From an uncultured Rubritalea sp. (GTDB taxonomy: Bacteria > Verrucomicrobiota > Verrucomicrobiia > Verrucomicrobiales > Akkermansiaceae), in the NCBI GenBank assembly GCA_937923145.1, contig CALAJT010000024.1, forward strand, positions 67,563 to 131,562: a stretch of DNA of 64,000 nucleotides, written 5' to 3'. Below the pieces are notes generated by a model. It searched no databases and was not told the DNA's origin. It saw only the letters and a program-made list of their open reading frames with translations. Each line of letters starts with the position of its first letter. Within the stretch, counting starts at the first letter, position 1. The position numbers and the translations under genes were made by a program. Below, piece after piece: positions 9,936 to 44,691 of the stretch.

Positions 9936-10241
9936 TTACTTTGTTAAGTTAGTGATTGCTTGTATCCAGTCACTCTGTGAGTCACCAGGCTTGCTACGCA
10001 TTACACGGTCTAAATAGACGAAATAAGCTTCTAGCTGTATTTCTTCGCATGAAGGGATTACTTTTACCTTGGTTAATGTTGATTTTTTAACAGCAATTTT
10101 CTTGGCAGTTTTTTTTGCCACTTTCTTAGCGGCCTTTTTGGCTACCTTCTTAGTTGCTTTCTTTGCTACTTTTTTCGCCGCTTTTTTAACGGTTTTTTTC
10201 GCTGCCTTTTTCGCTGATTTTTTAACTGCTTTCTTTGCCAT
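9936..10241 (-). CDS. histone H1-like Lys/Ala-repeat protein with DUF2934-like C-terminus
   Basis: N-terminal (K)KAAKK repeats; C-terminus EEIQLEAYFVYLDRVMRSKPGDSQSDWIQA resembles DUF2934. Confidence 0.7.
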   Translation of the reverse strand: MAKKAVKKSAKKAAKKTVKKAAKKVAKKATKKVAKKAAKKVAKKTAKKIAVKKSTLTKVKVIPSCEEIQLEAYFVYLDRVMRSKPGDSQSDWIQAITNLTK

Positions 10242-21936: not shown

Positions 21937-22093
21937 AGGGGGCGGAATCTATGGATATTTGATGGGAAATCAAGACAAATGTGATCAGTTTTTGTGATTT
22001 TTAACTGATTATAAGGTCTTAATAGGGCGATTTCGCATTTTTGCTCAGTTTTGAGTTGTCGCTAGCACCAGAAACGTGTTGCCTACCACCACT

Positions 22094-22600
22094 ATGAGCG
22101 ATATTTCAGATATTAAAATCACAATCAAGACAAACAAAGGCGACATCAAAATGACTATGTACGCACACGATACGCAAGTAACCTGCGCTAGCTTTCTAAA
22201 TCTAGCAACACGTGGCTACTACGATGGACTAAAATTCCACCGTGTCATCCCAGACTTCATGATCCAAGGAGGAGACCCTACAGGCACTGGAATGGGTGGC
22301 CCTGACTATAAATTCGAGTGTGAGTGCAAGCCACACCTCAAGCACGACAAGCCAGGCATCTTCTCAATGGCGAACGCGGGACCTAACACAAATGGCTCAC
22401 AGTTCTTCATCACTCACGTGGCAACTCCACACCTAGATGGTAAGCACACTGTCTTCGGAAATGTTACCGAAGGTCAAGACGTAGTAAACAAGATCGTAGG
22501 TGGCGACAAGATCGAGACTATCGAAATCCACGACAGCACAGACGACCTCTTCGCAGCGCAAGCAGACCGCATCGCTGACTGGAACAAGACTCTAGGTTAA
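22094..22600 (+). CDS. peptidyl-prolyl cis-trans isomerase, cyclophilin type
   Basis: [23 protein letters not shown]...[18 protein letters not shown]. Confidence 0.96.
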
Positions 22601-22928: not shown

Positions 22929-23016
22929 GCTCGGGTGGCGGAATTGGTAGACGCGCCAGACTAAGGATCTGGTGTCCATTGCGGACGTGGGGGTTCGACT
23001 CCCCCCTCGAGCACCA
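22929..23016 (+). tRNA. tRNA-Leu (anticodon AAG as read; CCA encoded)
   Basis: GCTCGGGTGGCGGAATTGGTAGACGCGCCAGACTAAGGATCTGG...GGGGGTTCGACTCCCCCCTCGAGCACCA; class II with variable arm; anticodon stem CCAGA/TCTGG around loop CTAAGGA. Confidence 0.95.
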
Positions 23017-23136: not shown

Positions 23137-26100
23137 ATGTCTAACTTCTTTGAAAAACCGATCCTCAATTCACCATATGATTACCCAGCACGACACTGGC
23201 AATTAGATGAAGATGGTCAACCTACGGATAGCATCGTTGCAAACAGACGAAAGTCATCTTACGTAACCCCTGTCCCTAAGCCTAAGAAACGTAAAAAGGG
23301 ACAAGAAAAAGACCTGTTTGCTGAAGAACCTCAAGGCATATCTATTGATGGACAGATCTACGATCAAACTTCGTTGATTGGTGAGATACGTCAAGCGGTT
23401 GATACATGGAGAGAGCTTCCTAACTCTAACAGCTGGGGTGTAACACCTGAGACAGCAAGACTCCTTCAGCACTGGAGAGATGGTAATAATTTTCACGGTA
23501 TTAGACCTTTCTTCTGCCAAGTAGAAGCTGCGGAGATAGCGATTTGGCTTACAGAAGTAGCTCCTAAGTTACCTCAATATCAGAAATTTTTTAAGTATCT
23601 TAAAGCTGTTAATGAAGAAGCAAACCCAGAGATTTTTCGCATAGCACTAAAACTTGCCACTGGTGCTGGTAAAACAACCGTAATGGCGATGCTTATTGCA
23701 TGGCAGACCATCAATGCAATCAGGCGCCCTAACAGTAAGACCTATTCGAAGGGCTTTCTTCTAGTGGCTCCGGGTATCACCATTCGTGATCGACTCCGTG
23801 TCTTATTGCCAAATGACCCAGAGAATTATTACAGCACGCGTCAACTTCTACCTGAGGAATACACTGATGATGTTCGGCAGGCTCGAATTGTTATTACGAA
23901 CTATCACGCCTTCCAGCTACGTGAGAAAATGGCGCTGTCTAAGGGTGGTAGATCACTGCTCCAGGGGAGAGGTCCAGATATCACCACCAAAGAGACCGAA
24001 GGTCAAATGGTGCAACGGGTTTGTGGCGACCTGATGGGACTAAAGAACATCGTTGTGATTAATGATGAAGCGCACCACTGTTATCGTGAAAAAGTAGGTG
24101 ATACTGCTGAAGAAACCGTCGATGAACTCAAGGGTGCTGATAAAAAGGATGCGCAAAAGAATAACGCCTATGCTCGGCTATGGATCAGCGGGATCGAAGC
24201 TATTAAACGTGTTATTGGTGTCAAGACAGTCTTCGATCTCTCAGCTACTCCTTTCTTCCTAGCTGGCTCAGGTTACCGAGAAGGCACACTTTTCCCATGG
24301 GTAATGAGTGATTTCTCACTTATGGATGCGATCGAATGCGGCATCGTTAAGTTACCTCGTGTTCCAATCATGGATAATGCTATTGATGGAGATGATATGC
24401 CAAAGTTCCGCAAGCTCTGGCAAGCGATGAAGGACGCCAAGCAGACATTGCCTACCACGAAAAGTGCCGCTAATAAGTATGACCCTAGAGAACTTCCTCC
24501 ACTTCTAGTTACGGCACTCCAAGCCCTCTATAGTCACTATGTAAAGACATACGACCAGTGGAAGACGACTCTAGATGTTCCTCCTGTATTTATTGTGGTC
24601 TGCCAAAACACAGAGATTTCTAAGTTAGTTTATAAATTCATCTCAGGTTTTGAATTTACTGAAAACAAAGACGGCAGTCAACCGCCACCATTCCTAGGCG
24701 ACTTCTCACTGTTCCGTAACTACGATGATAATGGCGAACGACTCGCAAAGCCCAACACTCTTCTCATCGACTCCGAGCAGCTCGAATCTGGAGATGCGCT
24801 AGACTCAGATTTCCGCAAATCCTTTGCTCCTGAAATAGACCGTTACCGCCGTGAGCTGATTGAGCGCACTGGTAATTCTGAAGCGGGTAAGAAGATAGAT
24901 GATTCAGATCTCATGCGAGAAGTCATGAATACCGTGGGCAAGAAAGGAAAGCTCGGTGAGCAGATCCGCTGTGTTGTCTCTGTATCCATGCTTACCGAAG
25001 GGTGGGATACGAATACAGTCACCCACATTCTAGGCATCCGAGCTTTTGGCACTCAGTTACTCTGTGAGCAGGTAGTTGGTCGTGGTCTACGTAGACAGTC
25101 TTATGAGCTGAATGAAGAAGGATTATTTGATGTCGAATATTCTGACATACTAGGAATCCCATTCGACTTCACAGCCAAGCCCACAGTATCTGAACCCAAG
25201 CCACCTAAAACAACAGAGCGTGTCCATGCAGTGCGCCCAGAACGCGATGCTTTGGAAATTAAATTCCCACGTATTTCAGGCTATCGGGTTGAGTTACCTA
25301 AACAAGAGTTAGCAGCCCACTTCACAGAGGATCATCATTATCAGCTTTCTCCAGCTATTATTGGACCCACTCGGGCGTTACTTTCTGGAATAGTAGGGGA
25401 GACGCATGAGATCACTCCGAGCCAGCTTAAATCGAAAAGAACTTCATCCATCATCTTCACGCTTACTAATAAACTGATCGAAAAACACTATCGCGATGAG
25501 AATGGGCAGATGCGTCTAGACTTTTTCGCTCCGCTTAAACGAATCGTCCGTAAATGGTATGATACATGCCTTACGTGCACTGGTGACACCTACCCAGCAC
25601 AAGTCCTCAATGGGCAGATTGCCGATGAAGCATGTAACAAAATTTACAATGCAATCAACTCTGCAGAGGTCGGCTCTGATAGAATATTTGCTATTACAGA
25701 TCACTTCAATCCTATAGGTAGTAGTTCAATAATAAATTTCAATACATCGAAACCTATCTACGCGACCGATCCTCGACGATCACAGATCAACTACGTCGTC
25801 TACGATTCAGAGTGGGAAGCTGATTTTGCTAGAGTGTGCGACACTCATCTGCTGGTAAAATCATATGTCAAAAACCAAAGCATGGGCTTTGAGGTTCCTT
25901 ACCGGATGGGAGCAGAGTCTAAGCGCTACATTCCTGATTTTATTCTCCGCATTGATGATGGTAGTGGCGGTATTCTCAATCTCATTGTTGAGATTAAGGG
26001 ATATCGGGGAGAGGATGCTAAAGTGAAAGCAGACACGATGCAGACTTATTGGGTTCCAGGAGTGAATAATCTTGGGAAATTTGGTAAATGGGCGTTTCTT

Positions 26101-26214
26101 GAGCTGACTCAGCCGTTCTCAATGGAGCACGAGCTTTCCGAGTATATTACTAAGATCTTAGATGAGAGCCTACCCAAACTTTCAGCAGACCAGAATCCAT
26201 TTCTAGTGAAGTAA
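23137..26214 (+). CDS. type III-like restriction endonuclease Res subunit (DEAD/DEAH helicase plus C-terminal PD-(D/E)xK-like)
   Basis: Walker A ATGAGKTTVMAM; Walker B NDEAHHCY; SATPFF; GRGLRRQSY; C-terminal IPDFILRI...LIVEIKGYRG. Confidence 0.88.
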   Translation: MSNFFEKPILNSPYDYPARHWQLDEDGQPTDSIVANRRKSSYVTPVPKPKKRKKGQEKDLFAEEPQGISIDGQIYDQTSLIGEIRQAVDTWRELPNSNSWGVTPETARLLQHWRDGNNFHGIRPFFCQVEAAEIAIWLTEVAPKLPQYQKFFKYLKAVNEEANPEIFRIALKLATGAGKTTVMAMLIAWQTINAIRRPNSKTYSKGFLLVAPGITIRDRLRVLLPNDPENYYSTRQLLPEEYTDDVRQARIVITNYHAFQLREKMALSKGGRSLLQGRGPDITTKETEGQMVQRVCGDLMGLKNIVVINDEAHHCYREKVGDTAEETVDELKGADKKDAQKNNAYARLWISGIEAIKRVIGVKTVFDLSATPFFLAGSGYREGTLFPWVMSDFSLMDAIECGIVKLPRVPIMDNAIDGDDMPKFRKLWQAMKDAKQTLPTTKSAANKYDPRELPPLLVTALQALYSHYVKTYDQWKTTLDVPPVFIVVCQNTEISKLVYKFISGFEFTENKDGSQPPPFLGDFSLFRNYDDNGERLAKPNTLLIDSEQLESGDALDSDFRKSFAPEIDRYRRELIERTGNSEAGKKIDDSDLMREVMNTVGKKGKLGEQIRCVVSVSMLTEGWDTNTVTHILGIRAFGTQLLCEQVVGRGLRRQSYELNEEGLFDVEYSDILGIPFDFTAKPTVSEPKPPKTTERVHAVRPERDALEIKFPRISGYRVELPKQELAAHFTEDHHYQLSPAIIGPTRALLSGIVGETHEITPSQLKSKRTSSIIFTLTNKLIEKHYRDENGQMRLDFFAPLKRIVRKWYDTCLTCTGDTYPAQVLNGQIADEACNKIYNAINSAEVGSDRIFAITDHFNPIGSSSIINFNTSKPIYATDPRRSQINYVVYDSEWEADFARVCDTHLLVKSYVKNQSMGFEVPYRMGAESKRYIPDFILRIDDGSGGILNLIVEIKGYRGEDAKVKADTMQTYWVPGVNNLGKFGKWAFLELTQPFSMEHELSEYITKILDESLPKLSADQNPFLVK

Positions 26215-26250: not shown

Positions 26251-29094
26251 ATGGCTAAGAAGAAAACAGCGAAAAAGAAAACGGCTAAGAGATCGACTAA
26301 AAAAACCATAGGAACCTTTAACCATGGAGATGAAGCTACGCGGAAGAACTTACCCTCAGCAGAAATGCAATCGGTGCTGGATGAGGACACTAAGAAGCCG
26401 ATAAAAGTGATTTATACCAGTTCACCGACCGCTCTCGAAGAGGAAATAGCAAACCGTGATCTTGACCTAGATCCCCAGCTGATTTGGCGAGGAAAGCGGA
26501 CAGAGCCTCTCGAAGTTCCAGCTCCGCCACTCTATATCCAAGAAAAGGTGAAGCCAAAAGCGATCATCGATGATCTCATCCGTCGCTCTAAGGACAATGC
26601 AGAAGAAGCTGGCGAAGAAACCCCAGATCTATTCTCAGACTTCAACGGACTCCCAGATAGTGCCAAATCGACCGACTTCTACCAGCATGAAGGTCACTGG
26701 ACAAACCGGATGATCCTCGGGGACTCGCTGCAAGCGATGGCTTCACTAGCTGAGCGTGAGGACCTACGTGGACAAGTGCAATGCATCTACCTCGATCCAC
26801 CGTATGGAATTAAGTTTAACTCTAATTTTCAGTGGTCCACCACCTCACGCGATGTTAAAGACGGTAAAGCCGACCACATTTCCCGTGAGCCAGAGCAGGT
26901 CAAAGCGTTTCGTGATACTTGGAGAGATGGCGTCCACTCATACCTCACCTACCTCCGTGACCGCCTTATCGTTTCGAAAGATCTTCTTCATGAGTCAGGA
27001 TCAATTTTTGTTCAGATCGGAGATGAAAACGTCCATCGTGTAAGAGCGTTAATGGATGAGGTGTTTGGGGAAGATAATTTTGTAAGTTTAATTTCTTTTG
27101 TAACCACTGGAGGGGTAAAACAAAATTATTTAGCAACTCAGTCTGATTACTTAATTTGGTTCTCTAGAGATAAAAAATATGCAAAGTATCGTCAGCCATA
27201 CTTCAAGAAAAATACTGAAGATGGTTCAGCTAAAACATTTACTTGGGTAGAAAGCTCTAACTTTGAGCGTAGAGGGCTTACGAGTAAAGAAAAAGCTAAT
27301 AATATAGTTCCTGAAAATCACAGATTATACAGCCCAAGAGATTTCACGACACAAGGCAATCCTGTCGTAGAATTCACTTTTCAAGGTAAAACTTATAAAA
27401 AACCATGGAAAACTACAATCAAGGGTCTGGAAAAAATGGGAAAAGCTAATCGTATTCATGTAGCTAAGAACAGTATTTCTCGTGTCAACTATCTTGCAGA
27501 TTTTGAAGTATCGGAAATAACTAATCTTTGGACTGATACGTTTCTAGGTAGCTTTGCAGAGAAAAAGCAATATGTGGTTCAAACTTCCCAGAAAACTATT
27601 CAACGCTGTATCCTAATGACCACAGACCCAGGAGACCTCGTCCTCGACCCCACCTGCGGCTCAGGCACTACAGCTTACGTTGCTGAACAATGGGGACGAC
27701 GTTGGATCACTATTGACACATCTCGTGTCGCCCTAGCCCTAGCTCGTGCACGGATCATGGGAGCACGCTATCCTTTCTATCACCTCAAAGACTCCCAAGA
27801 AGGGCAAATCAAAGAAGCCGCACTCAGCCAAACTTCCGTCCGCACTCAGCCCACTTACGGTAAACTACGGCAAGGATTCGTTTACGAACGTGTGCCACAT
27901 ATCACACTAAAATCCATAGCTAATAATGCTGAGATCGATGTCATCTGGGACACTTTCCAAGAGCAACTAGAACCACTCCGCGAGCAACTGAACTCCGTGC
28001 TATCGCAAAGCTGGGAAGAATGGAGAATCCCCAAAAAAGCAGAGGAAGATTGGTCCGCCACAGCGAAGAAACTCCACAGTGATTGGTGGAAATTCCGTAT
28101 CGAGCGTCAAATAGAAATAGATGCCTCTATCGCCGCCAAAGCAGACTATGAATACCTCTACGACAAACCTTATGAGGATAAAACTAAAGTCAGGGTAGCA
28201 GGACCTTTCACGGTAGATTCACTAATGCCCCACCGCACCTTAGCGGTAGATCAGAATGATGAAATCATCGATGGTTGGGCAATGCATGAAGGTGAAGAGG
28301 ACTACGGGAAAGTGCAAGATTTCACCTCAGTCATGCTAGAGACCCTCGCTTCTTCCGGAGTTCAACAGGCACATAAAGAAGATAAACTCAACTTCTCCAG
28401 TGTCTGCCCTTTCCCAGGAACCAAATATATCTGCGGTGAGGGATACTACACAGAAAGTGAATCTGAAGATGCTCCTCAGAAACGTGCAGGTATTTTTATC
28501 GGTCCAGAGTTTGGCACCGTATCACGACCTGATCTAGTAGCAGCTGCTCGTGAGGCTGCGGACATAGGATTCGATGTTTTAATCACCTGTGCTTTTAACT
28601 ATGATGCTCACACCACAGAATTTGAAAAACTAGGTGCTTTACCGATCCTAAAAGCGCGAATGAATGCCGATCTTCACATGGCAGACGATCTTAAAAATAC
28701 GGGAGCAGGTAATCTCTTCGTGATCTTCGGTGAGCCAGATATCAGCATAGAGCCGCAGGATGGAGATCTTATCCAAGTAAGAATCAATGGGGTGGATGTC
28801 TTCAAGCCATCCACTGGTAAAGTAGAATCAAGCGGTCCAGAGGGGATTGCTTGCTGGTTCATCGATACAGACTACAACGAGGAATCCTTTTTCGTCCGAC
28901 ATGCCTACTTCCTAGGACAGAATGATCCCTACAAGCAGCTAAAAACGACACTTAAAGCAGAAGTAGACCAAGAAGCATGGGACACACTGAACAGCGATAT
29001 TTCCAGAGCTTTCAAACGCCCATCGACTGGCAGAATAGCCGTAAAAGTGATCAATCACCTAGGTGATGAGGTCATGAAAGTCTATTCAGCCTAA
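26251..29094 (+). CDS. type III-like site-specific adenine DNA methyltransferase (Mod) with long C-terminal extension
   Basis: YLDPPYGIKFNSNFQW (DPPY motif IV) ... DLVLDPTCGSGTTAYVAEQWGRRWITID (SAM motif I); beta-class order. Confidence 0.9.
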   Translation: MAKKKTAKKKTAKRSTKKTIGTFNHGDEATRKNLPSAEMQSVLDEDTKKPIKVIYTSSPTALEEEIANRDLDLDPQLIWRGKRTEPLEVPAPPLYIQEKVKPKAIIDDLIRRSKDNAEEAGEETPDLFSDFNGLPDSAKSTDFYQHEGHWTNRMILGDSLQAMASLAEREDLRGQVQCIYLDPPYGIKFNSNFQWSTTSRDVKDGKADHISREPEQVKAFRDTWRDGVHSYLTYLRDRLIVSKDLLHESGSIFVQIGDENVHRVRALMDEVFGEDNFVSLISFVTTGGVKQNYLATQSDYLIWFSRDKKYAKYRQPYFKKNTEDGSAKTFTWVESSNFERRGLTSKEKANNIVPENHRLYSPRDFTTQGNPVVEFTFQGKTYKKPWKTTIKGLEKMGKANRIHVAKNSISRVNYLADFEVSEITNLWTDTFLGSFAEKKQYVVQTSQKTIQRCILMTTDPGDLVLDPTCGSGTTAYVAEQWGRRWITIDTSRVALALARARIMGARYPFYHLKDSQEGQIKEAALSQTSVRTQPTYGKLRQGFVYERVPHITLKSIANNAEIDVIWDTFQEQLEPLREQLNSVLSQSWEEWRIPKKAEEDWSATAKKLHSDWWKFRIERQIEIDASIAAKADYEYLYDKPYEDKTKVRVAGPFTVDSLMPHRTLAVDQNDEIIDGWAMHEGEEDYGKVQDFTSVMLETLASSGVQQAHKEDKLNFSSVCPFPGTKYICGEGYYTESESEDAPQKRAGIFIGPEFGTVSRPDLVAAAREAADIGFDVLITCAFNYDAHTTEFEKLGALPILKARMNADLHMADDLKNTGAGNLFVIFGEPDISIEPQDGDLIQVRINGVDVFKPSTGKVESSGPEGIACWFIDTDYNEESFFVRHAYFLGQNDPYKQLKTTLKAEVDQEAWDTLNSDISRAFKRPSTGRIAVKVINHLGDEVMKVYSA

Positions 29095-29156
29095 CGAAAA
29101 ATACATAAATACAGACCAAAACCTTAAAAAATAATTTGAAAACGCTTGTCGATCAA

Positions 29157-29170
29157 GTATCATATGATAC
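29157..29170. promoter_or_regulatory. candidate operator: perfect 14-bp palindrome overlapping a predicted -10
   Basis: GTATCATATGATAC; possible -35 TTGAAA at 29136-29141 with TATCAT at 29158-29163 (16-bp spacer); next ATG at 29206. Confidence 0.55.
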
Positions 29171-29205: not shown

Positions 29206-29667
29206 ATGGCAAAGAAAAAGACATCAACCAAAAGTGAACATATCCCTTCTGCCAGAGAAAAGTGTCAGAAGGTAGATATGGCAATATCAGCAATCTCGAA
29301 AGGAACAAACTATGTCCGAAATATCGCAGAAAAACACAACCAACTTGCCTACAAATTACTGTCCACTGACGATGCTAAAGTTGAAAACATGCTTGATGTC
29401 ATGGACTGGGTGCTCACCTTTCTGCATGACATCAAAGATGCTGATCCAGTAAAATGCTTTGTAGGTAAGAAAGCGCTACGATGTTATGAAAAGGGATTTA
29501 AAGATATTTTCTTATTCCCATATAAAATTTGGTCAGAAGATTACCAAACCGATGTTTACCTAAAATTCGGTATAAGAAAACAAATAACTAACGATGGGAG
29601 TGAGACTGAAGAGTTCATTTACTGCCATTTAGACTGCCACGAAGATGAGAAATATAAAGCGACCTAA
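29206..29667 (+). CDS. putative toxin of a toxin-antitoxin-chaperone cassette (possibly MqsR-like)
   Basis: First gene upstream of an MqsA-like antitoxin and SecB-like protein; C-terminal TDVYLKFGIRK...EEFIYCHLDCHEDE weakly recalls MqsR-type ends; assignment mainly by context. Confidence 0.5.
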   Translation: MAKKKTSTKSEHIPSAREKCQKVDMAISAISKGTNYVRNIAEKHNQLAYKLLSTDDAKVENMLDVMDWVLTFLHDIKDADPVKCFVGKKALRCYEKGFKDIFLFPYKIWSEDYQTDVYLKFGIRKQITNDGSETEEFIYCHLDCHEDEKYKAT

Positions 29668-29674
29668 ACATAGA

Positions 29675-30271
29675 ATGCCAAGGACTAAATGGAAAGTCCC
29701 AGAGTATTGTTCTAATCCTGACTGTGGAGCAAAACACAGCATCAAAGAGATGTTACTTCCTGGAATGCAGCTGATTCGTGATGAAGAAACCCACTATAAG
29801 GTGAATAAATACCGCTGTGTAGAATGTGAAATGACATTTCAGTCATCAGCCCAAGCTACTGAGGGCGTGAAGATAGCCGTGAGCGTGTACCAAAAGAAAC
29901 ACGGCTTACTCACAGCTGAATGTATTAAATCTAAGCGTAAGGCATTAGGAATAGAGTCAGCAGAGAAACTGGCAGAGCATCTAGACGGAGTGGTGAGTGA
30001 GGCAACACTGAAGAGAATAGAGTCAGGAGTGCATGTTCAAGACCCAAGCACGAATGCTGCGTTGGCGGCTAAACTAATAGAGTTAGAGGGAGAGCTTGGC
30101 TATATAGCTATTGATGGATTAAGTGACTTCATCATAACAGTGTGCTCAAAAAACCGAGTGCTAGGGTATCAGTCTACTCATGATGATTGGACTAAGCCCT
30201 TTGCAGGACTTTATGCAGAACTCGAGTCAGGAAAAACTACTAGTTTCGATGAAACGTTAACTATTTGCTAA
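29675..30271 (+). CDS. MqsA-like antitoxin: N-terminal Cys zinc-binding module plus XRE-type HTH
   Basis: CSNPDC...CVEC then HGLLTAECIKSKRKALGIESAEKLAEHLDGVVSEATLKRIESGVHVQDPST; ORF may start at 29645, overlapping the upstream gene. Confidence 0.75.
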   Translation: MPRTKWKVPEYCSNPDCGAKHSIKEMLLPGMQLIRDEETHYKVNKYRCVECEMTFQSSAQATEGVKIAVSVYQKKHGLLTAECIKSKRKALGIESAEKLAEHLDGVVSEATLKRIESGVHVQDPSTNAALAAKLIELEGELGYIAIDGLSDFIITVCSKNRVLGYQSTHDDWTKPFAGLYAELESGKTTSFDETLTIC

Positions 30272-30276
30272 ATACT

Positions 30277-30747
30277 ATGCTAAGCCCTATCCAAACAAGA
30301 CGTCATTTCATCAAAAAAGTAGAGTTCGAGGTTATCGAAGAAACTCATAAAGATGGAGAAGACGAAATAAAATTTAGTCTTAAAACACAGAAACATAAGA
30401 ACCATTGGCATGTTATTCTCGGTGTGAAATTCGGACCGATAGACAATAAATCAACTTCTCACTTTAAAGGTGAGATCGTTATGGAAGGCTTGTTTGATAT
30501 TGCTAACGATTTCCCAGAGGATAAGGTTAAAGATTTGGTGAAAATGAATGGAAGTGCGATCCTCTACGGGGCGATACGCGAAATGATGATTATACTAACC
30601 GCTAGATCGAATTTTGGTCCTCTAGAGCTACCTACTATTGATGCAAGGGTGTTTCTAAATTTGAACAAGGAAAAAAAACCAGCTAAAAAGAAAGCAAAGA
30701 AGGCTACCAAAAAGAAGAACTCGGTAGATCCAACTGATAAAAAATAG
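30277..30747 (+). CDS. SecB-like chaperone of TAC type
   Basis: GEIVMEGLFDIANDFPEDKVKDLVKMNGSAILYGAIREMMIILTARSNFGPLELPTIDARVFLN matches SecB pattern (G.F.I...FPE..L......L.PYAR..I..L....F.PL.L..I.F); Lys-rich C-terminal tail. Confidence 0.7.
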   Translation: MLSPIQTRRHFIKKVEFEVIEETHKDGEDEIKFSLKTQKHKNHWHVILGVKFGPIDNKSTSHFKGEIVMEGLFDIANDFPEDKVKDLVKMNGSAILYGAIREMMIILTARSNFGPLELPTIDARVFLNLNKEKKPAKKKAKKATKKKNSVDPTDKK

Positions 30748-30757
30748 CATTGTTCTA

Positions 30758-32818
30758 ATGGAATTCCTTATCGCAGAAACATTTTCTACCAGCCTTTTAA
30801 AGCTCAATGCAAATGAGCAGAAGCAGGCTAAGATAACTGTAATAGATCTACAGCTGAACCCTGCTCAGCCGAGCTTGCAATTTCATCGTATCGACAAATC
30901 TAAAGATCCTAACTTTTGGTCAATTAGGTCTAGTCTAGATATTAGAATCATTGTGCATAAGACAGCATCTAGCTTTCTAGTGTGCTATGTAGATCATCAT
31001 GATGATTCTTATAAGTGGGCTGAGAAGCGTAGAATAAGTACCCACCCTAAGACTGGTGCCACACAGATAGTAGAAGTAAGAGAGCGAATAGAAGAACAAA
31101 TAATCTATTTACAAAAAGTAGAGGAAGCTAAAGTGAAAGCTGAGCCATTACTTTTCGATACAATTGCTGATGACACGCTACTTAACTACGGTGTGCCAGA
31201 AGAGTGGATAGAAGATGTAAAACAAGCGACAGAATCAACATTACTAGATCTAGCTGATCATTTACCTTCTGAGGCTTCCGAAGCTCTCTTAGAATTAGCT
31301 ACAGGTGGCACACCTGAAACCGTCCCGAGTGTTAGCACTACTACCGGTTACAATCACCCAGATGCACAGAGACGATTCAAAGTTATTACGGATGAGGATG
31401 AGCTAGCTGTAGCGCTCGAATATCCATGGGAAAAGTGGACTATTTTTCTCCATCCATCACAACGTGCATTTGTAGAAAAAGATTTCAACGGTCCAGCCAA
31501 AGTTACAGGATCTGCTGGCACAGGTAAGACAATCGTTGCTATTCATAGAGCAGTATCTCTAGCTAAGAAATACCCCAAATCTAAGGTTCTTCTAACAACT
31601 CTCTCTGATGCACTAGCAATTCAGCTTAAGATTAAACTGAAAAGGCTAGTTCCGAAGTCGAGTGAACTTCTCGCACGAGTCTATGTGGAATCAATCCCAA
31701 CAATGCTAGATAAGTTGCTAATACAATTCTCTGATTATGCAATAATTTCTAAAGAAAGCACTTTAAAGGTTGTTGCTGAAATATGCTCGGAACAACAAAG
31801 TTCGGTATCTGCAAACTTCGTAACTGAGGAGTTTTACGATGTGATAGCAGCATGGAATGCAACTTCACTGGAGTCTTATACCAAACTCAAACGCATGGGC
31901 AGAAGAACCCGTATAGGTGTAGCTCAGAAAGAAGAAATATGGAATATATGCTCAGCACTGCGTGAAACACTAAAGTCTAAAAAGCTGATCACTGAACCTG
32001 ACGCCTATCATTTTCTATTAGAACATTCCGTTGTCCTCGGCAAAGAATTCTTCAGTTACACTCTCATAGACGAAGCCCAGGATTTGAGTATACCACAAGT
32101 TAAGTTTTTTGGTGCACTTGCAGCAAATAAGCCAAACGCACTATTTCTAGCAGGGGATATTGGTCAGCGTATTTTTCAGCAACCTTTTGCATGGTCGCAA
32201 ATGGGAGTGAATATTCGAGGACGGTCTCGTCAGTTGAAAGTGAACTATAGGACATCTCATCAGATCCGCTCAACCGCTGATCAGTTATTGCCTGAGACAC
32301 TGTCCGATGCAGATGGTCATCAAGAAGCGAGAAATAATACTATCTCCGTATTCAATGGTCCTGATCCCGTAGTGAAGTTATTTGAAAATAAGCAGGAAGA
32401 AATCGACTGGGTTTCAGAAAAACTGCATGAACTCACTATGCAAGGTATCCATCTTGAAGAAATGGGTCTTTTTGTAAGATCAGAAAAGCAATTTACCGAA
32501 GCTAGAGCAGCCCTTAAAGCTGCTGGGATAGCATGGTCAGAGCTGGAAAGAACTAATTCTCCCCAACCAGAACGCCTATCGCTATCTTCAATGCACTTAG
32601 CGAAAGGACTTGAGTTTAGAGTAGTAATTATAATGTCTTGCGATGATGAAGTCGTTCCTCTTTCAGGAAGGATCGAGGCTGTGACTGACGAATCTACTCT
32701 CGAAGAAATCTATGCCACTGAACGACACCTTCTCTATGTAGCATGCACCCGAGCCAGAGAACAACTCTATATCACAGCCTCTGAACCAGAATCTGAATTT
32801 TTATTAGATTTCGAATAG
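30758..32818 (+). CDS. UvrD-like SF1 helicase with N-terminal RelE/ParE-like domain
   Basis: Walker A VTGSAGTGKTIVAIHRA; DEAQDLSIPQ; QLKVNYRTSHQIR; SSMHLAKGLEFRVVIIM; LLYVACTRAREQLYI; N-terminus WSIRSSLDIRIIVHKTASSFLVCYVDHHDDSYKWAEKR resembles RelE-type toxin fold. Confidence 0.85.
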   Translation: MEFLIAETFSTSLLKLNANEQKQAKITVIDLQLNPAQPSLQFHRIDKSKDPNFWSIRSSLDIRIIVHKTASSFLVCYVDHHDDSYKWAEKRRISTHPKTGATQIVEVRERIEEQIIYLQKVEEAKVKAEPLLFDTIADDTLLNYGVPEEWIEDVKQATESTLLDLADHLPSEASEALLELATGGTPETVPSVSTTTGYNHPDAQRRFKVITDEDELAVALEYPWEKWTIFLHPSQRAFVEKDFNGPAKVTGSAGTGKTIVAIHRAVSLAKKYPKSKVLLTTLSDALAIQLKIKLKRLVPKSSELLARVYVESIPTMLDKLLIQFSDYAIISKESTLKVVAEICSEQQSSVSANFVTEEFYDVIAAWNATSLESYTKLKRMGRRTRIGVAQKEEIWNICSALRETLKSKKLITEPDAYHFLLEHSVVLGKEFFSYTLIDEAQDLSIPQVKFFGALAANKPNALFLAGDIGQRIFQQPFAWSQMGVNIRGRSRQLKVNYRTSHQIRSTADQLLPETLSDADGHQEARNNTISVFNGPDPVVKLFENKQEEIDWVSEKLHELTMQGIHLEEMGLFVRSEKQFTEARAALKAAGIAWSELERTNSPQPERLSLSSMHLAKGLEFRVVIIMSCDDEVVPLSGRIEAVTDESTLEEIYATERHLLYVACTRAREQLYITASEPESEFLLDFE

Positions 32819-35086: not shown

Positions 35087-35452
35087 TTACCTCTCTATTA
35101 ATTCAGTTGCAGATTCGCCATTCATTTTAACTCCGAAGAATTTATCTGATTCTATGGGGTGTTGATATTTGATAAGAAATTCTCCGTCATTTGTAGAAAT
35201 TACTTTTACTGGTTCGTTTTGTAGCAAGCAGATATCTAGTTGCTTTTGAGTTATTATATTGGACGTGACCAAGTCTTCAATTTTAGAGGGAGGTTTATTA
35301 TTTTTTTTGATATAAGTTTCAGTTCCGAAGTGGATGGTATGAATATGAGATTGTGCTGCTGCATAACGCCATGCGTTTTTACCGCGCTTTACGAAATTCA
35401 CATAATAGATGGTAATGACGGTTGCTACCGCTATGATGAGATATTTTTTCAT
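35087..35452 (-). CDS. single-TM protein, pseudopilin-like, coupled to TA pair
   Basis: MKKYLIIAVATVITIYYVNFVKRGKNAWRYAAAQSHIHTIHFGTETYIKKNNKPPSKIEDLVT; ATG overlaps PIN gene stop. Confidence 0.5.
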   Translation of the reverse strand: MKKYLIIAVATVITIYYVNFVKRGKNAWRYAAAQSHIHTIHFGTETYIKKNNKPPSKIEDLVTSNIITQKQLDICLLQNEPVKVISTNDGEFLIKYQHPIESDKFFGVKMNGESATELIER

Positions 35453-35862
35453 TTAGAATATCTCTTTAAAAATTCTCCGGGAGTCACCACTTCGATGGGA
35501 CTTTTAGTGAAGCCTTTTCTATCGTTGGAGATAATTAAGTCTGCGTTCCCTACAACCGCTGTCAGAACTTGCAATGCATCTTCGAAGTCACTGTCTATGA
35601 ATTGAAATGCTAGCAACGTTTCTTCCGATCCAATTTTAGGTATGAGGTAGTTATTCACCAGACCTTCTAGAATCTGAATTAAGGCGTATCGGGAAAACGA
35701 TTTTTGAGCTATATACTCTATGATAGAAAGACTATGTAGAGCACACATAGGTTTAGCCTGAAGTTCAGTCATTCTTTTTTCAAGAGCAACTGCTTTAAGA
35801 TGACCATTACGAATGGAAATGAGCTGGTCTAAGATGATATTCGTGTCAAAAAGTAGACGCAT
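35449..35862 (-). CDS. PIN-domain toxin (VapC-like)
   Basis: MRLLFDTNIILDQL ... ADLIISNDRKGF. Confidence 0.85.
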   Translation of the reverse strand: MRLLFDTNIILDQLISIRNGHLKAVALEKRMTELQAKPMCALHSLSIIEYIAQKSFSRYALIQILEGLVNNYLIPKIGSEETLLAFQFIDSDFEDALQVLTAVVGNADLIISNDRKGFTKSPIEVVTPGEFLKRYSK

Positions 35863-36149
35863 TATGAGCCGTATTTCTCGTCGAGACGTGTGTAGTAATC
35901 AGCTTTTGTAAGAGTTTTATTAGTAGCAGGCGAGGTGTCTGTTGCTTTGCTTCTTATCTCTTCTAGCCATGTGAAACTTGTGCCATTTTCAATCGAGATG
36001 ATTTTTTTTAGCATGTTCTGATAGTCGAGTATCGATAACACGACAGCGACAGGTCTACCTTTTTTAGCGATCTCTACAGGCTCTTGATGAATTTTTTCAA
36101 GGAGTTCCCCGAATTTATTCTTAGCCTCTGTTGCTGGAATAGTAGTCAT
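35862..36149 (-). CDS. Phd/YefM-family antitoxin
   Basis: MTTIPATEAKNKFGELLEKIHQEPVEIAKKGRPVAVVLSILDYQ. Confidence 0.92.
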   Translation of the reverse strand: MTTIPATEAKNKFGELLEKIHQEPVEIAKKGRPVAVVLSILDYQNMLKKIISIENGTSFTWLEEIRSKATDTSPATNKTLTKADYYTRLDEKYGS

Positions 36150-41667: not shown

Positions 41668-43128
41668 CTAAGAACTTGGAAGGAATCTATAGTAAACTTC
41701 TAGCATCAATACTGAAAGACAAGTAGCATAGTGCACAGAGTTCATTCCGTGAGCAGCTGCACCAGGGATTTTCCAAGAGCCGTCCTTTTCTTGTGCCTCA
41801 GCGAGGTTAAACATAGTCTTTTCATTATATTTTGCCCATGCTCTACCTTGAGCATTGATCATAGCTTGGCTTGAATAGTAATGATCATATAGATCACCGT
41901 GAACCTTATAGTCGAAATCATTTTTCTCATTAATCCACTTTATCATTTTACGTGTAACAGAGCGATTACCTTTACCCCATTGTTGGTAGCAAAGTGCTCC
42001 ACCGCCAGTTAGAGCATCTCTAGAAGCATTGTTGTATCCCATGAACCCTTGCTTATTGGTGCAGAATTCGAGGTATTTGATTCCATCTTTAGCTACTTTC
42101 TCAAGTCCTTTCTCAAGTCCTTCGAATTCGAGCTTTGTCATTTTGCAAGCCTTGAGAGCCTGCAGCTGCCAACAGGTGACAGACGTATCTACGTGAGCAT
42201 CCTCTGAGACAGCATAAGCGTAACCCCAGCCTCCATTTTCATGCTGGTTACGCATGATGAAGTTTCCAGCTGTTATTACTGTCTCTTCTAGATTAGGAAT
42301 GGAAATTTTAAATTCCTTACAGAGTGTGTATGCTTCGGCTAGGGCGTATGTTGCGATTGGGTGCTCATAGCACCATGATCTATCAGCTAAATTGGAGCCA
42401 AGTTTTCCCTCATTAGCTTGGCTCTTATTGATCAAGTAAACGATTGCTTTCTGAACAGTCTCACCGAACTCAGGTGAAGCAGGAGTCTCACAGTGACCTA
42501 GGTATGCGAGAAGAGCTAGACCAGTCATCGCTACTGGCTTGCCTTGAGCATTCCACGATCCATCAGCTTTCTGTGTTTTTTGAAGCCAGCGAAGTGCTGC
42601 TACTACTTGGTCTTCGAATTCAGGCTTGCCACCTTCTTTGGAGAGTCTCTGTCTGCGGTCAGCTTCTGTGCATCGTTTTTGCATGGATGCCGGGATACCA
42701 AATCCTCCGCTACTACCAGAACCAGCGCCAGCGCCAGCGCCGTCGCCCCAGCCGTCTCCGAAGTCATCTCCATCACCGAAGTCGAGTGAAGGCTCAGTTA
42801 CTGTGATTTCAGGCACAGGAACTGCTGTAGGTGAAGGAGTGTTAGCGGCTATCACCTTAGACATGCTTGAAGATGGTGATGACGGCTTATTCTCTACCTG
42901 ATTCGTCATCTCTGGTTTAGTGATTTCTTGATCAGAGTCTGAAGCTGCTGAGTAAGATACAGTTTCTTCATTGTTCTTAAAGAATGGGGTCAACGCAATA
43001 ATCCAAAGAATAACTCCTAAAAGCGTGCATACTAGAAGTGAAATGATGATAGCTGAAATAGTAGAATTCCGCTTCTGAACAGCAAGCTTAGCTTGGGCTT
43101 CGGGACTTAATTGTGCATGTAGACTCAT
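41668..43128 (-). CDS. membrane-anchored prenyltransferase/squalene-oxidase-repeat protein
   Basis: N-terminal TM; LRWLQKTQKADGSWNAQGKPVAMTGLALLAYLGHCE; repeated GGWGYAY, DGSW QW-like motifs. Confidence 0.85.
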   Translation of the reverse strand: MSLHAQLSPEAQAKLAVQKRNSTISAIIISLLVCTLLGVILWIIALTPFFKNNEETVSYSAASDSDQEITKPEMTNQVENKPSSPSSSMSKVIAANTPSPTAVPVPEITVTEPSLDFGDGDDFGDGWGDGAGAGAGSGSSGGFGIPASMQKRCTEADRRQRLSKEGGKPEFEDQVVAALRWLQKTQKADGSWNAQGKPVAMTGLALLAYLGHCETPASPEFGETVQKAIVYLINKSQANEGKLGSNLADRSWCYEHPIATYALAEAYTLCKEFKISIPNLEETVITAGNFIMRNQHENGGWGYAYAVSEDAHVDTSVTCWQLQALKACKMTKLEFEGLEKGLEKVAKDGIKYLEFCTNKQGFMGYNNASRDALTGGGALCYQQWGKGNRSVTRKMIKWINEKNDFDYKVHGDLYDHYYSSQAMINAQGRAWAKYNEKTMFNLAEAQEKDGSWKIPGAAAHGMNSVHYATCLSVLMLEVYYRFLPSS

Positions 43129-43248
43129 ATTTTTATAGTTTGGTTATAACTAGATAACTCAAACTACTCCTATTTTCTTAGGAGAAAAACCAAAAAAGAT
43201 TTTATTTTTGCTATTTCATTCCTTTTTACGCTTAAAGTGCTCTGTATA

Positions 43249-44691
43249 TTATGAACTTGGAAGGAACCGGTAGTATACTTCTAGCATCAAAATAGAGAGA
43301 CAAGTGGCATAATGCTCAGAAGACATTCCATGTTTGGCTCCGCCTGGGAGCTTCCATGACCCATCATTTTCTTGAGCTGTGGCAAGGTTAAACATCGTCT
43401 TTTCGTTATACTGAGCCCAAGCTCTTCCTTGTGCATTGATCATTGCCTGACTGGCATAATAGTGTGCATAGAGTTCTCCGTGCACTTTGTAGTCAAAGTC
43501 ATTTGTTTCAGTGATCCACTTTATCATTTTACGCGTGGCTGAGCGATTACCCTTACCCCATTGTTGGTAGCATAATGCACCACCAGCAGTCATTCTGTCG
43601 ATCGATGCATTGCTATAGCCCATGGTTCCAGCTTTAGAGTTGGTGCATTTTTCTAGGTATTTAATCCCGGCTTTAGCGCATTTCTCTAGTCCGTTGAATT
43701 CTAGCCTAGTTAGTTTACAGGCTTTAAGGGCCTGTAGATGCCAGCAGGTGATCGATGTGTCTGTGTGGGCTCCAGGTGAAATTCCGTAAGAGTAAGCCCA
43801 GCCACCATTTTCGTTTTGATTACTTATGATGAAGTTTCCAGCAGCAACTATAGTTTTTTTTAAGTTTGGAACCGTGACCTTAAATTCCTTGCAGAGTGTG
43901 TAAGCCTCGGCGAGAGCGTAAGTGGCGATAGGATGTTCGTAGCACCATTGTTTATTAGCAGTTGAGGTAGCAAGCTTGCCGTCATTGTTTTCACTGCTGT
44001 TTATGAGGTAAATGATAGCTCTTTGAACATTCTCTCCAAACTCAGGTGAGGTAGGATTTTCACAATGTCCGAGGTATGCGAGGAGTGCTAGCCCAGTCAT
44101 AGCCACTGGCTTGCCTTGAGCATTCCATGAGCCATCTTTATTCTGAGTTTTCTGGAGCCACCTGAGAGCTGATATTACTTGATCTTCAAATTCTGGTTTA
44201 CCGCCTAGGTTAGCCAGCCTCTCTCTGCGGTCAGCTTATGAGCACCGTTTCTGCATAGATGCAGGAATACTGATACCTTGATTTCCATTAAAATTACTAT
44301 TCCCCATTTCTCCTTTGCCAAAATCATCACTATTCACGAAATCTAGCGATGGCTCAGTGATCATAATTTCTGAAACAGATATAGAAAGAGGGGAGCATGC
44401 TTTAGAGTTTAGTAACCGAGCTATACTATTAGTCGGGGCTACAGGTTTTCTCTGAATATGATCTGGCATAGTTGGTTTAGTGATGAGTGGGTCAGCATTA
44501 GTAGTGGAGGCTGCCCGAGTGATTAATACTTCATTATTTTTAGAAACTATCTTCAGAGAAATAACAAATAATAGTATCCCGATCAGAGCACACATAAGAA
44601 ATGAGATGAGTATGGATGATACAGTGGAATTGCGTTTCTGGGCTGCGAGGAGTGTTTGCGCTTCAGAGCTTATTTGGGCATGGAGACTCAT
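43249..44691 (-). pseudogene. paralog of the 41668..43128 prenyltransferase/squalene-oxidase-repeat gene, interrupted by one in-frame TAA (44236-44238)
   Basis: N-part 44236..44691 ends ...IPASMQKRCS*; reading continues in the same frame ADRRERLANLGGKPEFEDQVISALRWLQKTQNKDGSWNAQGKPVAMTG...; intact paralog has RCTEADRRQRLS at this position (GAA vs TAA). Confidence 0.85.

Follow-up and report, generated by a model that had tools for sequence, protein, structure and literature searches.

Three consecutive genes of an uncultured Rubritalea sp. form a tight operon for a predicted toxin–antitoxin–chaperone (TAC) system, and this TAC is a removable, exchangeable cassette in the accessory slot of a restriction–modification (R-M) operon. 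We consider it likely that this slot cargo is a divergent TAC of the MqsRAC type, whose antitoxin would depend on the chaperone and whose RNase toxin would impose a phage-triggered growth arrest layered with restriction. Gene order, protein families, the predicted fold, the antitoxin tail, the operator candidate, and the slot itself were computed here for the window—the whole 64,000-nucleotide stretch of DNA that was analyzed—and for its relatives. The relevant features of the window are:

23137–26214, + strand: res, restriction endonuclease of the BPTD_3080 family (NCBIfam NF046055, 1253.6 bits, cut-off 800)
26251–29094, + strand: mod, type III-like N6/N4 DNA methyltransferase (Pfam N6_N4_Mtase; PADLOC MTase_III, 1268.9 bits)
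29136–29163, + strand: predicted promoter (−35 TTGAAA, 16-bp spacer, −10 TATCAT; 10/12 in the consensus scan)
29157–29170, no strand: palindrome GTATCATATGATAC, candidate operator of the antitoxin
29206–29667, + strand: ORF1, toxin of 153 aa (ATG at 29206, stop at 29667), predicted MqsR-like RNase (RelE/BECR-type)
29645–30271, + strand: ORF2, antitoxin with MqsA-type Zn-finger (CX4C/CX2C), XRE HTH, and C-terminal extension (about 152–208)
30277–30747, + strand: ORF3, SecB-like chaperone of 156 aa, the third TAC component
30758–32818, + strand: UvrD-like helicase (Pfam UvrD), third of the core genes in the R-M operons of relatives

The TAC operon and its accessory slot

The three ORFs are present where the original prediction had placed them, overlapping or nearly abutting: ORF1 and ORF2 share 23 nt, ORF2 and ORF3 are separated by 5 nt, and ORF3 ends 10 nt before the helicase. 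Only the start of ORF3 had to be moved, from the initially listed TTG 30265 to ATG 30277, where its homologues bear a conserved MLSPIQ. Homologues of ORF1 are rare. A single clear case beyond the window's own genome is found among 394 genomes of the phylum, and seven further loci—all from Verrucomicrobiota—come from the genome contig collection, while the plasmid, phage, and viral-contig collections contain none. These homologues are 31–52% identical to the window's toxin. The order of toxin, MqsA-like protein, and SecB-like protein is kept in 9/9 Verrucomicrobiota loci; since L002 and L004–L010 all repeat it, the arrangement is not due to chance. In L007, the toxin frame is broken. Hence, the predicted TAC organization stands, with sequence, synteny, and structure prediction in agreement. 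A further toxin match in L003/L103 (G114) was rejected, as it is short and lies inside an unrelated 306-aa ORF.

SecB-like TAC chaperones of every kind occur in 27 of the 394 genomes. Another recurrent three-gene set (L077, L078, L079, L081, L082, L083, L085, L088, L089, and L090) starts in most loci with an upstream ORF of about 120–140 aa bearing the pattern IP.WR..V...L; next come an antitoxin-like protein, in which an AR.MG segment is conserved, and a SecB-like protein. The small upstream protein of L090 has no Pfam match, and the set possibly represents another unannotated TAC toxin family.

The cassette sits between mod and the UvrD-like helicase of a BPTD_3080-type R-M operon, whose general layout is res–mod–slot–helicase. 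Assignment to this type follows from an NF046055 endonuclease over its cut-off with an adjacent DNA methyltransferase (MTase_III). The helicases of nearer relatives in other Verrucomicrobiota are 47–51% identical. The slot holds a TAC in the window and in L004, L005, and L006, and other cargo in the following loci:

L061: OLD-like AAA ATPase
L062: proteins without family
L063: MNT-HEPN pair, with mod beyond the contig end
L064: pentapeptide and AAA proteins
L065: HigB-like/HTH-IrrE pair
L067: SLFN/AlbA protein
L068: GHKL and methyltransferase-like proteins

L098 (mod stop at 10144, helicase start at 10155) has an empty slot. The same holds for two plasmids of Pseudomonas, in which the mod and helicase genes share one base; at this position, plasmids of Gemmobacter and Rhizobium bear unassigned genes. 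Since the slot is empty or bears other cargo in relatives, the R-M core does not depend on the TAC. Conversely, the cassettes of L002/L094, L007, and L009 lie outside an R-M core, so the TAC does not depend on the core either.

Related arrangements are found in further modification-based defences. In L010, the cassette follows the BREX-2 gene pglX (NF033451, 1467.7 bits) and precedes a 274-aa gene and then pglY, whose PglY equivalog match is below cut-off; in L008, it is flanked by what remains of a pglX and by the beginning of pglY, again of BREX-2. Altogether, cassettes of the ORF1 family reside in R-M or BREX operons in six of nine loci—a small raw count—with the three stand-alone loci named above making up the rest. 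On a Thiodictyon plasmid, a more distant MqsR-like/MqsA/SecB set is located between a DNA methyltransferase and the DISARM gene drmA, with an IS inserted upstream, and in L069 and L084, type I-like R-M genes have a HigB-type TAC as neighbour. Embedded abortive or RNase backup effectors (HEPN-MNT, Schlafen, and OLD) were described inside BREX and related modification-based defence operons (PMC12839542), in a main text with no mention of SecB, chaperones, or MqsA. The likeness lies in a backup effector within a modification-based operon, which is BREX or a related system there and the slot of a BPTD_3080 R-M operon here. For our cassette, the relatives in other DNA-methylating defences suggest a growth-arresting backup to restriction.

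This exchangeability can also be read as addiction: a genuine TAC might merely hitchhike on a mobile R-M, BREX, or DISARM locus and stabilize it post-segregationally, with no link to restriction and no need for phage defence. The cassette has its own predicted promoter and operator, is stand-alone in some loci, and several of the host operons are plasmid-borne, all of which would suit such a role. However, the other genes found in the slot often resemble defence genes (OLD-type ATPase, SLFN/AlbA, STAND-like AAA, and MNT-HEPN), and a known MqsRAC protects against phage (PMC9519451); this speaks for defence more than for pure addiction. We regard addiction alone as unlikely.

The surroundings of the cassette show several additional features. 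A second slot of the same R-M operon, between res and mod, is variable and holds DUF4062/HATPase in L061, NYN in L062, Fic in L006, and a HigB-like TAC with Gp49-type toxin in L070. The N-terminal region of the window's helicase (30758–31180) appears RelE/ParE-like by eye (SLLKLNANEQKQAK...DIRIIVHKTASSFLVCYVDHHDDSYKWAEKR), with no Pfam domain called in it. A tRNA-Leu (22929–23016) lies directly 5′ of the R-M operon and a cyclophilin gene (22076–22600) just before it; a cyclophilin gene is also near the stand-alone TAC of L009. This tRNA-Leu/cyclophilin site is a possible integration hotspot; direct repeats of at least 16 nt bracketing the island were not found. A Phd-like antitoxin/PIN-like toxin pair, recognized by eye, lies some 3 kb away from the R-M/TAC island (35449–36149). 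At 41668–44691, paralogues of a prenyltransferase-like repeat protein are encoded in tandem; the second is broken into two ORFs (44236–44691 and 43249–44106) and is apparently a decayed duplicate.

Toxin, antitoxin, and chaperone families

ORF1 had been described as a protein of no clear family, and indeed no profile matches it above cut-off. The Pfam family MqsR (PF15723) gives no match at E ≤ 10 in any of the eight ORF1-family members scanned, and none anywhere in the window's own genome. The AlphaFold2 model of ORF1—based on an alignment of eight homologues—reaches a pLDDT of 81.7 and a pTM of 0.79. Foldseek against the PDB places E. coli MqsR (3hi2_B) on top, with prob 0.92, a modest E-value of 0.038, and a TM-score of 0.55 normalized to MqsR; the other PDB matches listed have prob ≤0.14, leaving MqsR as the sole credible one. 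In hhalign, the ORF1 family aligns poorly with classical MqsR alone (E = 0.023). The alignment reaches E = 6.9e-5, with colinear DVY, YLKF, and SFKE (SF-E) motifs, when three bridging sequences are added to MqsR: an MqsR of Verrucomicrobial origin (L011) and two toxins from MqsA modules that are associated with SecB (Thiodictyon L019 and Cupriavidus L020).

On the residue level, Y118, K120, R124, H145, and E146 are invariant in the ORF1 family, position 92 is strictly K/R (R92 in the window), and the homologues share an invariant YLKFGIR as well as a conserved C-terminal motif Y-x-H/Y-L-D/N-C/L-H-E. Catalysis by MqsR requires Lys56 and Tyr81 (PMC9636575). Hereby, Tyr81 aligns with the invariant Y118, and the K/R position 92 falls within two columns of Lys56. 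At the position of MqsR Lys96, the family bears the invariant His145, followed by the invariant Glu146. Based on the fold match and the bridging profile, ORF1 is probably MqsR-like, yet no member of PF15723.

The original prediction had left a choice between a divergent MqsR-like RNase and a new toxin type, i.e., a toxin not related to MqsR in fold or activity. The latter could appeal to the missing Pfam match, to the weak direct MqsR profile score, and to the YLKFGIR...CHED signature, which is unlike classical MqsR. It is nevertheless improbable, as the single coherent Foldseek match is MqsR, the bridging profile joins ORF1 to MqsR, and the partner protein is MqsA-like. The comparisons of sequence and model thus favour the divergent MqsR-like RNase—its activity being predicted—and ORF1 probably does not constitute a new toxin type. 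An ADP-ribosyltransferase, the other fold proposed for comparison, gains no support: neither PADLOC and Pfam nor the fold search of the PDB matched such a toxin at the locus, and one weak BFVD row (PolyVal ADP-ribosyltransferase, prob 0.25, rmsd 13.6) is noise. Two further matches of ORF1 were set aside, namely Phage_TAC_3, a phage tail assembly chaperone family (E = 5.5e-4, below cut-off, absent from the homologues, and seemingly fortuitous), and the de novo designed protein 6vgb, a helical match of low specificity.

For the second protein, the MqsA-like reading holds. All four cysteines (C22-X4-C27 and C58-X2-C61) are invariant in 11 homologues. ORF2 matches the MqsA-family model NCBIfam TIGR03830 at E = 4.8e-8, below cut-off, and its homologue in L002 exceeds the cut-off of Pfam MqsA_antitoxin (PF15731; 30.9 vs 30 bits). 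Foldseek of the ORF2 model retrieves E. coli MqsA (3gn5) with E = 2.5e-5 and prob 1.00. The model is confident up to about residue 150, with pLDDT >90 across most of the Zn-finger/HTH body. Past the MqsA fold, the tail of 57 residues (152–208) has a pLDDT of about 40, with all values <50, and is predicted to be disordered; the solved chains of E. coli MqsA comprise 131–132 residues. C-terminal extensions are typical of TAC antitoxins (PMC5105189, PMC9519451), and the modelled tail of ORF2 is hence a candidate for the chaperone-addiction region, a TAC hallmark. At the C-terminus, most antitoxins of the family have small, hydrophobic residues (LAA, ALA, PAA, LCA, CLV), among them L005 with LAA, which is the ClpXP signal at the C-terminus of CmdA (PMC11618068). 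This degron-like resemblance to the CmdA tag is suggestive only, because the window's own antitoxin ends in TIC.

The third protein is SecB-like as predicted, with 34.6 bits against Pfam SecB (cut-off 26, E = 2.1e-8). Its best PADLOC match is PD-T4-9_C (CmdC), with E = 2.7e-8.

Operator candidate and known TAC systems

All 8 cassettes with a visible promoter have the sequence GTATCANNTGATAC a few tens of bases 5′ of the toxin start—exactly in seven and with one mismatch in one—and, allowing one mismatch, it is found nowhere else in those cassette loci. The 2.7-Mb genome of the window contains a single occurrence, at the cassette's own promoter. Promoter-like sites are no commoner in this region than in shuffles. 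Since the promoter call alone is not significant, the predicted promoter draws its support from its position over the conserved operator. The left palindrome arm contains its −10 box, so that autorepression by the antitoxin is predicted, and the palindrome is a candidate operator for ORF2.

Such a DNA-binding role could go further, with ORF2—together with ORF1 and ORF3—acting mainly as a C protein-like transcriptional controller of the R-M operon and with no growth-arrest module at all. The HTH region of ORF2 is fold-similar to the R-M controller proteins C.BclI and C.AhdI, and the cassette genes lie between mod and the helicase, only 10 nt separating secB and helicase. However, these fold matches are generic for XRE-HTH and weaker than that to MqsA, the sole genomic copy of the operator is at the cassette promoter with none upstream of res or mod, and homologous cassettes also exist outside R-M operons. 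This makes a controller very unlikely.

Sequence and models support MqsRAC, and not HigBAC or CmdTAC, as the closest precedent, and our verdict is a putative divergent MqsRAC, embedded as a backup effector. MqsRAC systems were described for E. coli C496_10 (PMC9519451, PMC10783111) and V. cholerae RC385 (PMC5105189). The likeness comprises the RNase toxin (predicted here), the MqsA antitoxin with C-terminal extension, and the SecB-like chaperone; judged by the published descriptions, the window differs in a toxin outside Pfam MqsR with His in place of Lys96. Work on C496_10 used its three genes as a clone; by contrast, the window's cassette is embedded and has relatives in R-M or BREX operons. 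For the C496_10 and RC385 systems, neither a scan for primer sequences nor a query of E. coli genomes with MqsRA DNA gave a match. Naming also differs in the literature: the TAC of "E. coli C496" is called HigBAC in PMC11980606, and the C496_10 system MqsRAC in PMC9519451. E. coli MqsR and MqsA (3hi2, 3gn5) are the closest solved folds of ORF1 and ORF2, but form a two-component system without chaperone and with an MqsA that lacks the tail.

CmdTAC (PD-T4-9) shares the gene order and the SecB-like chaperone. However, CmdT is an mRNA ADP-ribosyltransferase and CmdA consists of two helices and an unstructured region (PMC11618068), neither of which is seen here. CmdT by itself was not toxic. HigBAC and M. 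tuberculosis HigBA1-SecB(TA) share the tripartite logic and chaperone addiction, but bear a toxin and antitoxin of the HigB/HigA type; HigB-like TACs are also present in Verrucomicrobiota.

Proposed mechanism and its meaning

From these features, we infer RNase activity, repression, chaperone dependence, a phage trigger, and cooperation with R-M. ORF2 would bind and block the MqsR-like RNase ORF1 and repress the cassette promoter at GTATCANNTGATAC. Its disordered C-terminal extension might render the antitoxin unstable unless held by the SecB-like ORF3. A phage product that occupies or titrates the chaperone—for CmdTAC, the trigger is a capsid protein (PMC11618068)—would then lead to degradation of the antitoxin, and the freed toxin would cut mRNA and stop growth. 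This arrest might give the R-M core time to destroy the phage DNA, or abort the infection if restriction fails. For the C496_10 MqsRAC, protection of E. coli from T2, chaperone-dependent neutralization, and loss of protection upon extra chaperone were reported (PMC9519451), as was cooperation with McrBC restriction (PMC10783111). A TAC within an R-M operon fits this reported cooperation.

The TAC might also be a dedicated guard, whose antitoxin–chaperone pair senses an attack on, or the failure of, the adjacent R-M, BREX-2, or DISARM machinery, for example when the SecB-like chaperone captures an anti-restriction protein. A guard of this sort is PrrC, which watches over a type I R-M. For the present cassette, we consider a guard rather doubtful.

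The divergent MqsRAC-type cassette extends this group of TACs to Verrucomicrobiota, with a toxin branch unrecognized by Pfam. Its placement in modification-based defence operons is the more interesting part, beyond the toxin assignment: TACs are exchangeable cargo in three such defences, namely BPTD_3080 R-M, BREX-2, and—by a related TAC—DISARM. With TAC and restriction in one operon, a single cloned locus, together with the relatives that naturally lack the TAC, allows a direct test of cooperation or guarding. If the guard reading were true, TACs would serve methylation-based immunity in general as an exchangeable fail-safe layer.
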